In this document: piece after piece, positions 13,752 through 36,705 of the stretch
Numbering within the stretch: the first letter of the stretch is position 1
How the letters are laid out: the number at the start of each line of letters is the position of its first letter
Origin: a virus
Strand: one strand, 5' to 3'
Length of the DNA stretch: 36,705 bases
IMG/VR virus record: IMGVR_UViG_3300032308_001541
Coordinates: 1 to 36,705 of that record
Position numbers and translations under genes: made by a program
Notes under the pieces: generated by a model
Told to the model about the DNA's origin: nothing
The model's input: only the letters and a program-made list of their open reading frames with translations
Databases searched by the model: none

Positions 13752-13760
13752 GCCCTTAGG

Positions 13761-13777
13761 AGATCTCTCTGAGATCT
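13761..13777. promoter_or_regulatory. Palindrome beside the minus promoter (operator candidate)
   Basis: AGATCTC-TCT-GAGATCT is a perfect 7-bp inverted repeat centred at 13769, ten bases upstream of the -35 box of the minus-strand promoter. A second inverted repeat, ATTTGC (13778-13783) with GCAAAT (13796-13801), adjoins it. The location suits a regulator binding site, though both could be the first hairpins of the adjoining structured RNA. Confidence 0.45.
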
Positions 13778-13819
13778 ATTTGCTCGTTCGCACTCGCAAA
13801 TCTGTTTTCTAACACACAT

Positions 13820-14403
13820 GATCCACATGCAGACACCCGAGCCAAGATACCACTATCCGACAGTGGTATCCATACCAGTAGGTGTTTTTGTCTGCGTGAT
13901 CACTTTGGCTCTGCCCTTACCATACCTACAACGATTTTTAAGAGAACTCTCAGTGGTTGTGTTCTCATAGTGATTTCAATATACGCCATACCTGTACGAC
14001 AGCAAAAACCCTGCCCGTGTGGGGGCTGATTTGAGGAGCCTGTTCGGCTATGCTGAAGCCAGACTATAGACTGATCTGATTTGGTTGCCGTCACACATCA
14101 GAACGGATTCACCAGCGGAATGTCAACGGCCCGCCAACCTTGTGTCTATACTGGACTCGATGGATAGGGAACAACGCAAATGGTTGTGATTCCTACACAT
14201 CAAGTCTCCATGTGTATATATGACAATCAAGAGAAAGCCCAGGTTTTTTAGGCCTGGGCTGGGGTCCTTGCGACCTTGAAGTTGGAGACTTATAGGAACA
14301 CACAAGAAGATGTTGGGGAATCAGGAGAAAAAGGACTTACTATGGCAAGCAAGCACAAAGACCCAACTGTTTATGGGCCAAACACGAGCCATCATCCCCA
14401 ACA
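13820..14403. ncRNA. Large ornate structured RNA candidate (~580 nt)
   Basis: This stretch has no convincing gene over most of its length but many long complementary segments. Stem 13820-13835/13889-13901 (GAT, CAC, GCAGACA) encloses hairpin 13846-13854/13862-13870. GAGCCAA (13839-13845) in that loop pairs with TTGGCTC (13905-13911), a pseudoknot. ACAAC (13928) with GTTGT (13956) interleaves with GAGAAC (13942) and GTTCTC (13961), a second pseudoknot. Further helices are 14000-14003/14025-14028, 14037-14040/14046-14049 and 14059-14071/14144-14154 (CCAG and TATAGAC). Others are 14184-14210/14283-14305 (includes AAGTCTCCA) around hairpins 14236-14260 and 14262-14274, and 14311-14319/14395-14403 (TGTTGGGGA). 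The size and density resemble GOLLD and ROOL phage RNAs, but I cannot match it to either. The strand is undecided: no clear plus-strand promoter was found. Confidence 0.6.
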
Positions 14404-14449
14404 AGAATATTTAGTTGTCCGGCGTCAAAGGCCACATTTTAGGCGCTGA
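14342..14449 (+). CDS. Possible 35-aa protein at the edge of the structured region
   Basis: The ATG at 14342 is preceded by AGGAG and AAGGA. It opens a 35-codon frame beginning MASKHKDPTVYG, ending basic (VVRRQRPHFRR). It lies inside the last RNA stem and overlaps, antisense, the end of the minus-strand 94-aa frame. Composition is plausible but there is no independent support, so either frame or neither may be real. Confidence 0.3.
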   Translation: MASKHKDPTVYGPNTSHHPQQEYLVVRRQRPHFRR

Positions 14450-25524: not shown

Positions 25525-25879
25525 ATGGCAGAAATTACAACAAGTCAAATTGGTAATGGTACAACCGCATATGGTGCGGACATCGTTGTCAAAGACTTAG
25601 ACCTAGATGTGAGCAATCGCGTCAAAGACGATACACCTGTGTTGAACATGTGTATGACCAAGAAGCGCAAAGTAAATTCTACATTGCCCTTGTGGACCGA
25701 CGATATCTATCGTTTACCAGAAGCACAAGCTGTCAAAGAAGGTGCTGCTGTGTCCTCAACCAATGCGGAAAGCAACAGCCGCTTCAATCTTGCAAACTAC
25801 ACGCAGATTTTCCAGACCACAATCGCGGCTTCTGGCACAGCTCGTGCAGTAATGCAGTCCGGTGGAGATCCACAAGCCT
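25525..25879 (+). CDS. Major capsid protein, exon 1 (SU10-type)
   Basis: Exon 1 encodes the first 118 residues plus the first base of codon 119. It contains KDDTPVLNMCM, VNSTLPLWTDDIYRLPEA, and NYTQIFQTTIAASGTARAV, which is the order seen in SU10-type HK97-fold capsid proteins. Read straight on, the frame meets TAA at 25894-25896 and would give a 123-aa truncated product. The proposed 5' splice site is after U25879, in the codon T|AT. Joined to 26156-26973 the gene is 1,173 nt, 390 aa, a normal capsid length. Confidence 0.88.
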
Positions 25880-26155
25880 TAACAACACTTCATTAAGAAG
25901 AAGGGCCTTTCTATAGTAATATAGATCGAAGAATTCTGTGAAAACGGTGAAACTCTTAGCAAGTTAAGTTGAAGACAATACCGTGCCAAGCCCGTAAGGG
26001 AAGGTGTAACGACTAGACCGCAAGGTCGTAGGATCAAGGGATCCGAAGTGCAGAAAATCCAGAAATGGATTATGAGATAGTCTACTCTGTATAGAAATAT
26101 ACAGCAGTCCGAAAGGACGGGGATTGGAAGACCGAACCAATTTCGAATTTTTAGG
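25880..26155 (+). ncRNA. Group I self-splicing intron, ORF-less (276 nt)
   Basis: The core helices are visible. P1 is GCCU (25876-25879) with GGGC (25903-25906), placing a U-G pair at the splice site. P3 is UUCUGUG (25934-25940) with UGCAGAA (26049-26055). P4 is ACGGU (25944-25948) with ACCGU (25980-25984). P6 contains the CCC-GUAA-GGG hairpin. P7 is GACUA (26011-26015) with UAGUC (26078-26082), giving the guanosine site in AACGACUAGAC and GAGAUAGUC. Between P7 and P3 two hairpins (GACC-GCAA-GGUC and GGAUC-AAGG-GAUCC) match P7.1 and P7.2 of subgroup IA. P8 is AAUCCA-GAAA-UGGAUU. P9 hairpins are CUGUAUA-GAAA-UAUACAG and GUCC-GAAA-GGAC. It ends in G26155. Exact splice sites were chosen to restore the capsid frame; the 3' site is the less certain. 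Confidence 0.9.
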
Positions 26156-26973
26156 ATCAAGAAGTGAAACAATTAATAGAGCTGATGTTCGATGTGGAAG
26201 CTCAGTTGGTTCGTAACGATCAGATCGGTACACAGTACTCAGGTCAAAGCGGTACAGCCATCACCAACCCAGGCACAGCACAAACAGGCGGTCGTCGTAT
26301 GGGTTCGTTGAGCGCATTTGCAGGCACACAGAGTTTTAACCCCAGTGCCAACGCAGCTGCCAACATCACCACCAACACCAACAATGCGTCCAGTGACTCG
26401 TCATCGGCCAATGTGGGTAACTTGAACATTGCCGCTGACGGCACACAGTTCTACACAGGAACATTTGTGAACCAGTTGTTTTCACCAATCAACTACAAGC
26501 AGTTGGTGACCACAGCAGAACAGCGTTACAATGCCAAGATCCGCACCATGGTTGTTCCAACCAGCTTGCGCACAATGATTTCCGACCAAATTGGTACTAG
26601 CAACACAAGTATCAACCGTCGTAATGTGGAGCGTGGCGACACCATCCAAACATACGAAGGCGATTTCAACTACACATATGAAATCTTTGATTCGTGGATC
26701 ATGGACAGCGTAGGTGTGTCAAACAGCATTTACTTCCTCAACGAAGAAGTATTGCAGTGGGGCTCATTGCGCGATCTAGGACCCAACAATGAAGTGTTCA
26801 GCAATGCCGACGCATCGCTTGATCAGTTCTTGATGGAAGGTACTTTGATTGTTCGCAACCCAGCTGGCGTAGGAATGTTAAACAACATTTCCACAACTGG
26901 CGCAGCAGTCACAGCACCACGCACAAGCACATTCGTACAGCGTGTGAATGTGGGTGCCGGCGACACATACTAA
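26156..26973 (+). CDS. Major capsid protein, exon 2 (SU10-type)
   Basis: Exon 2 supplies AT to complete a tyrosine codon, giving DPQAYQEVKQL across the junction, then IELMFDVEAQLVRND. This restores the A-Y-Q and helix pattern usual in this capsid family after the SGTARAV segment. The only in-frame upstream stop is TAG at 26152-26154, in the intron. The rest contains FVNQLFSPINYKQLVTTAEQRYNAKIRTMVVPTS and ends with VQRVNVGAGDTY. A GTG at 26164 has no Shine-Dalgarno site, so separate translation of exon 2 is unlikely. A rho-independent terminator follows at 26999. Confidence 0.88.
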
Positions 26974-35010: not shown

Positions 35011-36663
35011 ATGGCACAGCGCTACGAAGAAAACAAAGTACCTTTTACCAACATGACCTTCCATCCGGATGTGCCAAGCAGTGCGCTGGGCCCCAATGAA
35101 TACAATTCTGGATTCAATGTAGAAACTGACATACGCGGCATCAGGTCAGTGCTGGGCGACGAAGAGATCCTGGACAACCTCACAGGCACACCAATCTATG
35201 TCACAGGCGGCTACCGAGCCAACAATGTTTGGTGGTTCGTAGCAGCCACATCAGCAGGTCGTTGGTATGCCAACAATGGTGCAGGTGCCTGGACAGAGGT
35301 CACGCCAGGTGGTGTAGCACTTTCGGGCTACGGCCTAGACACCAATATCACAGAAGCCTGGAACGGTACCACCCTGTTTATCAACGACGGTCTACATCCG
35401 CCCATGTACCTGACCGCCAGTGCCGCTGCGTTTATACAATACTCCGACGATCCCCTGGCAGCGCCACCTGCTTATGTGTGGAACTACAATCCTTCTTGGT
35501 CAAGTCTGACCGCAGGTTGGATGAGAATGTACAATACTCCCAATGTGGGAAGTATCTTGATTGCCGGCAATCTTCGCAGTGTGGATGCCAACACCAGCAT
35601 AGTCACAAACTTTGCAACCACTGTGCGTTGGAGCCAGGCATTTGGCATCAACGATGGACCCACAACCTGGGCACCCACAGCACAGAATGTGGCCAACGAA
35701 CTGGAAGTACCAGTGCGTGGTCCTGTGGTAGATGGCTTCCCCAGCAACGGCAATTTTTATGTGTGTAGCTACTGGGACACAGTGGTATTTTCACCAATCA
35801 ATTTCCAAGGCACCAGCAACCCTGTGCTGGGTGTGCGCCTGTTCAATCAAGGACGCGGCCTGCTCAATGCCAACTGCTGGGCCAATGCAGACAGCGATGT
35901 GTATGGTGTAGATGCCAGAGATATCTGGGTGTTCAATGGCCAAGAATTTGCAGGCCTGGGCAGTCAAAGAATCAGAAACTATTTCTTTGAAAATCTCAAT
36001 GTGGGCTACAGCAGCCGTGTGTTTGTGGAAAACAACACTAAAAAAAGTCAAATAGAAATCTACTATCCAGATCTCAACAGCACCGGCTGGTGCAACAAAA
36101 TGATCAGTTACAACTATCTGTTAAAAGTTTGGAATGCACCCAGAGATGTCAGCAATGCCAGCATGGCTTGTGAAGCACCTGTGTATGGACCGTGGCCCGA
36201 TTCAAGTGAACTGTTTGATCCTGCCAGCAGGACCATGGTGTATAGCCGTGGTGTGGCCAACACAGCCCTGGTACAAAAAGATCAAGGCTATACATTTTTG
36301 GGCAACACAGCCATTGCCAGTGAATTCCGTAGAGACAATATACAGTTGCTCAAAGACTATTCAGGACACCTGTTGGTGCACCGCATCCTGCCCGAAGTGG
36401 TCAACCTGGATACAGGAGGCTTGCCCTTGGCCAACAGCACAGGCAATATCACTGTGGCTGTGGGCGGCTCAAACAGCGTGGGGCAACCACCAGATTTCCA
36501 AGCCAATGTGACCATAGCTTGCAACACCAACAGTCCTTGGACACAGATTGATCAAAATGCCTATCGCATCAATTCAATCCGGCTCAACAACACCAGCAAT
36601 TCAACGGCCTGGTTGTGCAGTGCTACCACCTGGCAGTACACACAAACACAGGACGACAGATAA
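35011..36663 (+). CDS. Tail nozzle / stabilisation protein (P22 gp10 or T7 gp12-like, 550 aa)
   Basis: Preceded by AAGGA, with a leader almost identical to that of the 28411 gene (ATAACAAGGAACA). The N-terminus (MAQRYEENKVPFTNMTFHPDVPSSALGPNEY, split by the domain start) leads into WD-like beta sheets with VWWFVAATSAG, WNGTTLFINDG, YVCSYWDTVVFS and DIWVFNGQEF. These features fit the beta-propeller nozzle proteins that extend the podovirus tail below the adaptor. It is present in one copy, is large and sits at the end of the appendage block. Its 3' end forms the window's terminal repeat. Assignment rests on pattern and order, not on a search. Confidence 0.65.
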   Translation: MAQRYEENKVPFTNMTFHPDVPSSALGPNEYNSGFNVETDIRGIRSVLGDEEILDNLTGTPIYVTGGYRANNVWWFVAATSAGRWYANNGAGAWTEVTPGGVALSGYGLDTNITEAWNGTTLFINDGLHPPMYLTASAAAFIQYSDDPLAAPPAYVWNYNPSWSSLTAGWMRMYNTPNVGSILIAGNLRSVDANTSIVTNFATTVRWSQAFGINDGPTTWAPTAQNVANELEVPVRGPVVDGFPSNGNFYVCSYWDTVVFSPINFQGTSNPVLGVRLFNQGRGLLNANCWANADSDVYGVDARDIWVFNGQEFAGLGSQRIRNYFFENLNVGYSSRVFVENNTKKSQIEIYYPDLNSTGWCNKMISYNYLLKVWNAPRDVSNASMACEAPVYGPWPDSSELFDPASRTMVYSRGVANTALVQKDQGYTFLGNTAIASEFRRDNIQLLKDYSGHLLVHRILPEVVNLDTGGLPLANSTGNITVAVGGSNSVGQPPDFQANVTIACNTNSPWTQIDQNAYRINSIRLNNTSNSTAWLCSATTWQYTQTQDDR

Positions 36664-36705
36664 TGACCACATTTGCTGTAGTCAACAACAGCGACCTTTT
36701 ACCAG
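36583..36705. repeat. Terminal direct repeat, right copy
   Basis: Identical to bases 1-123. It contains the end and stop (36661-36663) of the nozzle-like gene and the first 43 bases of the fibre gene that is complete at 81-2072. Confidence 0.97.

Follow-up and report, generated by a model that had tools for sequence, protein, structure and literature searches.

The region between positions 13820 and 14403 of the window (the whole 36,705-nt stretch of DNA analyzed, corresponding to the 36.7-kb phage record IMGVR_UViG_3300032308_001541) encodes, on the minus strand, a large structured RNA whose fold includes two pseudoknots. Comparison of related sequences established the homology, the two-pseudoknot secondary structure, the strand, and the distribution of this RNA, whose family occurs in phages, both T4-like and small, and in integrase-bearing islands on the chromosomes of freshwater bacteria. 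We consider it probable (roughly 0.6) that the RNA is a free-standing, trans-acting molecule serving as a scaffold or particle, in which a pseudoknotted 5′ domain related to the Rfam family RF01718 is joined to one of several 3′ domains.

Setting, extent, and strand of the RNA

The window originates from a freshwater phage. Since a 123-bp direct terminal repeat was present at both ends (1-123 and 36583-36705), the record probably represents a complete genome. Elsewhere in it, a group I intron (RF00028, 70.4 bits) was located at 25881-26104 (+) between the ORFs 25525-25896, which matches a major head protein family, and 26164-26973.

The RNA lies within about 730 bases between the genes 14722-14411 (-) and 13683-13279 (-), both of which are on its own strand. 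An earlier sequence-only reading had seen no convincing gene here, and this was borne out: for the plus-strand ORFs overlapping the region, the search for gene homologs returned none except one 23-residue piece following the conserved RNA block. One overlapping minus-strand ORF comprised 64 aa, and a search of the window for tRNA and tmRNA genes found none. Minimum-energy folding was unremarkable (z = -1.2 for the plus and -1.8 for the minus strand), and the argument was therefore built on the comparison of relatives. Related phage loci were gathered via the terminase and a ParB/methyltransferase-type protein, and the intergenic region aligned with those of L015, L012, L025, L081, L020, and L172.

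The interval 13820-14403 was found to span two minus-strand RNAs, a large one of about 400 nt (RNA-B) and a small one (RNA-A), which are listed with their parts in Table 1. The proposal of one RNA across the interval was thus right about a large structured RNA, but it merged two transcription units and gave no strand. RNA-B runs from about 14160 to about 13759, both ends being estimates, and its 5′ end may perhaps lie near 14210. The strand was assigned as minus because G-U pairs outnumbered A-C mismatches on it (60 vs. 19, p = 4e-6) and RNAalifold scored minus above plus in every sequence set; the former bias ruled out a plus-strand RNA.

Table 1. Features of the two RNAs in the window (positions on the window, all read on the minus strand)
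Feature	Positions	Strand	Evidence
Large structured RNA (RNA-B), ~400 nt	13759..14160	-	Homologs aligned; match to covariance model R1 at 14049-14153 (-), 91.5 bits, the window belonging to the training set of R1
Pseudoknot 1, 5′ strand UAUAGAC	14144..14150	-	≥5 bp in 48/56 sequences; 36% when swapped
Pseudoknot 1, 3′ strand GUCUAUA, within loop of hairpin A	14065..14071	-	Same arm-swap test
Helix P_B, 14134-14131 / 14118-14115	14115..14134	-	99.5% of cells paired; four of four pairs covary
Helix P_2, 14114-14111 / 14085-14082	14082..14114	-	R1 model and alignment
Near-invariant hairpin CCGUUCUGAUGUGUGACGG	14088..14106	-	Motif scans in viral and bacterial contigs; R1 alignment
Hairpin A, 14078-14075 / 14063-14060	14060..14078	-	96.9% of cells paired; four of four pairs covary
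Hairpin F, GCCC/GGGC (L015: GUCC/GGAC)	14013..14026	-	Alignment of phage relatives
Helix X, AUCACU 13974-13969 / AGUGAU 13904-13899	13899..13974	-	≥5 bp in 16/17; 13% swapped
Helix G, GAGAAC 13966-13961 / GUUCUC 13947-13942	13942..13966	-	≥5 bp in 14/17; 12% swapped
Helix Y, GUAGGU 13929-13924 / ACCUAC 13883-13878	13878..13929	-	≥5 bp in 15/17; 39% swapped
Hairpin UACCACU-GUCGGAU-AGUGGUA, conserved loop UCGGAUA	13848..13868	-	Alignment and sequence
Twin 3′ hairpins UUUGC/GCAAA and AGAUCUC/GAGAUCU	13761..13800	-	Recur in 12 phage members
Small structured RNA (RNA-A)	14231..14415	-	TAAATA box; closing helix 14403-14395/14319-14311; terminator 14260-14233

Homologs in phages and bacteria

Distant blastn searches of named phages and plasmids left the RNA unmatched. 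A scan of viral contigs with the conserved plus-strand motif TRCCGTCAC-N6-GAACGGRTTY returned at least 119 stretches, all but eight chance hits having a common flanking structure, so that viral homologs occur in more than 100 contigs. The same motif was found in 54 stretches of bacterial genomes, about 30 of which were true homologs; true and false stretches were sorted by their flanks according to our own judgement. The bacterial hosts included many Polynucleobacter, as well as Limnohabitans, Pseudorhodobacter, Loktanella, Erythrobacter, and others. The distribution was sporadic, with three copies in one Polynucleobacter genome and the RNA present in 8 of 300 genomes of the family. The named host isolates of Polynucleobacter, Limnohabitans, Pseudorhodobacter, and Loktanella make the RNA open to testing.

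The 5′ domain and pseudoknot 1

The covariance model of the 5′ domain, R1 (106 positions), was trained on 34 sequences, none of them from the T4-like group. When 99 sources were searched with it, 99 matches resulted, the T4-like group among them. In the resulting alignment 96.1% of cells were paired (69.4% in shuffles), changes on both sides of a pair occurred in 402 cells (113 in shuffles), and the covariation score was 0.620, compared with 0.133 for shuffled alignments and at most 0.103 when partners were slid, a value reached in 0 of 500 shuffles; these figures are biased towards the structure, to which the alignment had been fitted. More weight falls on the slid controls and on the T4-like group, which stood outside the training set.

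Pseudoknot 1 arises where the loop of hairpin A base-pairs with a strand located some 78 nt upstream, in the same position in nearly all sequences. At least 6 bp could be formed in 42 of 56 sequences, compared with 11% when the arms were swapped between sequences, and the excess over both controls was kept when this pseudoknot was added in fixed columns. The near-invariance of the hairpin CCGUUCUGAUGUGUGACGG partly reflects how the sequences were found, since the first scan used the conserved motif; four copies that the model alone recovered carry changes in it.

Ribosome targeting through complementarity of CUGAUGUGUGACGG to 16S rRNA was considered and rejected, as matches of at least 9 nt arose in 18% of shuffles (16S locus plus flanks). 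The segment was also changed in 6 of the 99 aligned copies, which counts against such a role, and the 16S decoding-site string gave no match to the one exact pattern tried.

The 3′ domain and pseudoknot 2

Window-type relatives have in common a module around UUAAAAAUC. Helices X, G, and Y all covary, and Y crosses X to form pseudoknot 2. Farther downstream, L012, L025, and L020 carry another stem around the same UCGGAUA loop, and the first stem of the twin 3′ hairpins varies by compensatory change. The bacterial members have a different 3′ domain, likewise structured and conserved to about +480, and the T4-like phages have a third type. The 3′ domain of the family is therefore of at least three types.

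The complementary segments that had been pointed out from the sequence are indeed present, and the expectation of at least two pseudoknots was correct in number (14150-14144/14071-14065, and X crossing Y), but the pairs named for it were mostly not conserved. One of the four, 13942/13961 (GAGAAC/GTTCTC), strongly covaries and corresponds to helix G. The stem 13829/13889, the pseudoknot 13839/13905, and the pair 13928/13956 are broken in L012, L025, L020, L081, and L172, where the alignment is less certain.

The covariation of the helices bears on two explanations that dispense with an RNA. Chance complementarity or an unrecognized protein gene would agree with the weak folding z-scores and the overlapping 64-aa minus-strand ORF, but in view of the covariation, and of plus-strand ORFs whose only homologous piece was so short, we give it practically no weight. 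A conserved DNA element, such as an origin, an attachment site, or protein-binding palindromes, would account for upstream inverted repeats and for the location in mobile DNA; it is very improbable, since interleaved helices with compensatory changes and the excess of G-U over A-C on one strand fit an RNA rather than sites in DNA.

Relation to known RNA families

At the Rfam cut-offs no match was obtained in the RNA region of the window, and no large-RNA family appeared at E values up to 5; the search of covariance models suggested by the sequence-only reading thus yielded no large RNA that could be named. RF01718 (Polynucleobacter-1; Weinberg 2010, PMC2864571) likewise gave no match on the window at E values up to 5, so its gathering cut-off (37 bits) was not reached, and Rfam missed all 13 of the other phage and bacterial loci tested. 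However, RF01718 matched a T4-like subset on the same strand as the RNA, some relatives scoring 45-79 bits, and gave a weak 16-bit match at the right place in L095. Conversely, R1, trained without the RF01718-matching group, found its members (L118 at E = 2.5e-11, L146 at 2e-6), and this group also has pseudoknot 1. The RF01718 hits L161 and L118 share the strand, the near-invariant hairpin, hairpin A, and the freshwater setting.

On this comparative evidence the 5′ domain of the window RNA is related to RF01718, but the RNA is not callable as RF01718. The RF01718 model comprises 141 nt without pseudoknot 1, and its core hairpin is poorly paired in L161 and L118, whereas the RNA family described here is 400-550 nt long, with further domains and a second pseudoknot. 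The databases hold only a short piece of it. The earlier suggestion of a new class or a distant member therefore came close: this is a large RNA class, the 5′ domain of which has a relative already in Rfam. A little-studied entry thereby becomes a widespread class whose strand is defined, whose two pseudoknots are backed by covariation, and which occurs in three genomic settings.

Identity with GOLLD, ROOL, HEARO, or OLE was rejected, as none gave an Rfam match, and GOLLD and ROOL gave none at any E value tried. GOLLD, found in phages and prophages, is a large, ornate RNA, one half of which is conserved and the other variable (PMC12286853), and the family of the window RNA is also large, ornate, and phage-borne with two such halves, but its conserved half is the 5′ one, as opposed to the 3′ one in GOLLD. 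ROOL has a similar size, several pseudoknots, and an association with phages (PMC12286853); the multiple pseudoknots and phage location of the window RNA, which also differs from ROOL in sequence, make this likeness an analogy only. Neither family's covariance model matched, and tRNA islands were absent around the RNA family, where 4 of 56 loci had one tRNA each according to ARAGORN; GOLLD, which assembles into a 14-mer RNA nanocage, often adjoins tRNA genes. The earlier comparison with GOLLD and ROOL accordingly holds for a large phage RNA with several pseudoknots but not for membership in either family. HEARO and OLE are similar in being large structured bacterial RNAs, and neither an HNH/IscB-type gene nor an OLE-associated protein was recognized among the identified recurrent neighbor families.

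Genomic context and proposed mode of action

In bacteria, a small tyrosine recombinase (PF00589) was located near 25 copies and DUF6641 near 27, with DUF6876 also nearby. Genes recurring near the RNA in the islands L210-L261 were DUF6641, DUF6876, DUF6626, and an unnamed family with the motif YYWWAFLR; the recombinase of these islands had about 190-220 aa, and only its catalytic domain was matched. In T4-like phages, the RNA directly follows a SegE-type GIY-YIG gene and has an SbcC-like recombination gene and a baseplate-hub gene as neighbors.

A TAAATA box, which we take to resemble the T4 late promoters (TATAAATA), was found upstream of 25 of 27 bacterial copies (2.8 expected), 10 of 36 window-type copies, and none of 38 T4-like copies. 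For the bacterial copies, there is support for independent transcription. TAAATA boxes also stand shortly before several start codons of the window on both strands (e.g., 2503, 6827, 21670, 13711, and 14706), which suggests a T4-late-like promoter in a small phage.

According to the favored reading of a free-standing RNA, it would be transcribed separately while the phage grows or the element is induced, often from a TAAATA box, and would fold on its own. It might then act in trans as a scaffold or particle helping the phage or element, as proposed for GOLLD and ROOL, with the near-invariant hairpin possibly contacting a host factor or a second copy of the RNA. It is by analogy with those RNAs that we infer late expression, action in trans, and any formation of a particle. 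Counting against this reading, the T4-like copies lack TAAATA, directly follow SegE, and lie at a nearly constant distance ahead of a same-strand gene; in that group the RNA could therefore be part of an mRNA.

An unlikely explanation is that the RNA is a cis-acting leader or riboswitch-like element for the same-strand downstream gene (13683-13279 in the window). The two flanking genes of the window lie on the RNA's strand, of the 39 T4-like loci with an assigned downstream gene, 35 had it on the same strand as the RNA, with a median start of +454, and the 2010 survey marked Polynucleobacter-1 with "y" in a column taken to be cis-regulatory (PMC2864571). However, such a constant co-oriented gene was found within the T4-like group only, and the genes downstream of the RNA are unrelated between groups. 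Among loci where a downstream gene could be assigned, it faced the RNA in 11 of the 25 bacterial ones and in 5 of the 34 of window type, which argues against a leader role there.

The RNA could also function within a mobile element, either being used by a recombinase or GIY-YIG endonuclease or hitch-hiking along with it. The recombinase beside the bacterial copies, the three copies in one genome, and the sporadic distribution speak for such a role, as does SegE, which adjoins the RNA in 46 non-redundant phage loci and lies on the opposite side in L094. Yet most of these loci come from a single phage lineage, and the linkage may therefore reflect common descent; in the window, neither gene was observed next to the RNA, and a tyrosine recombinase requiring such an RNA is not known to us. 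We regard this role, too, as improbable.

A more specific form of the free-standing reading is put forward tentatively, at somewhat less than even odds: the RNA would form a separate class of phage RNA, large, self-folding, and similar in kind to GOLLD and ROOL, in which the pseudoknotted 5′ domain is universal and the 3′ domain of several types; it would be carried by lytic phages and by recombinase islands that use phage-late-type promoters. If so, islands switching the RNA on from such promoters would suggest satellites of T4-like phages; that the islands are phage satellites is possible. Independently of this proposal, the RNA joins GOLLD and ROOL as a third example through which to ask what large ornate RNAs do for the phages that carry them.

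The neighboring small RNA

The closing helix of RNA-A covaries among the window, L015, L013, and L005, and its hairpin has the loop UANACAGU. A "Betaproteobacteria toxic sRNA" match at 14229-14290 (E = 0.77, 18 bits against a required 50) was rejected as a chance match around the terminator. RNA-A also contains AGUCUCCA, the complement of a UGGAGA that is located where the next transcript starts in several relatives.
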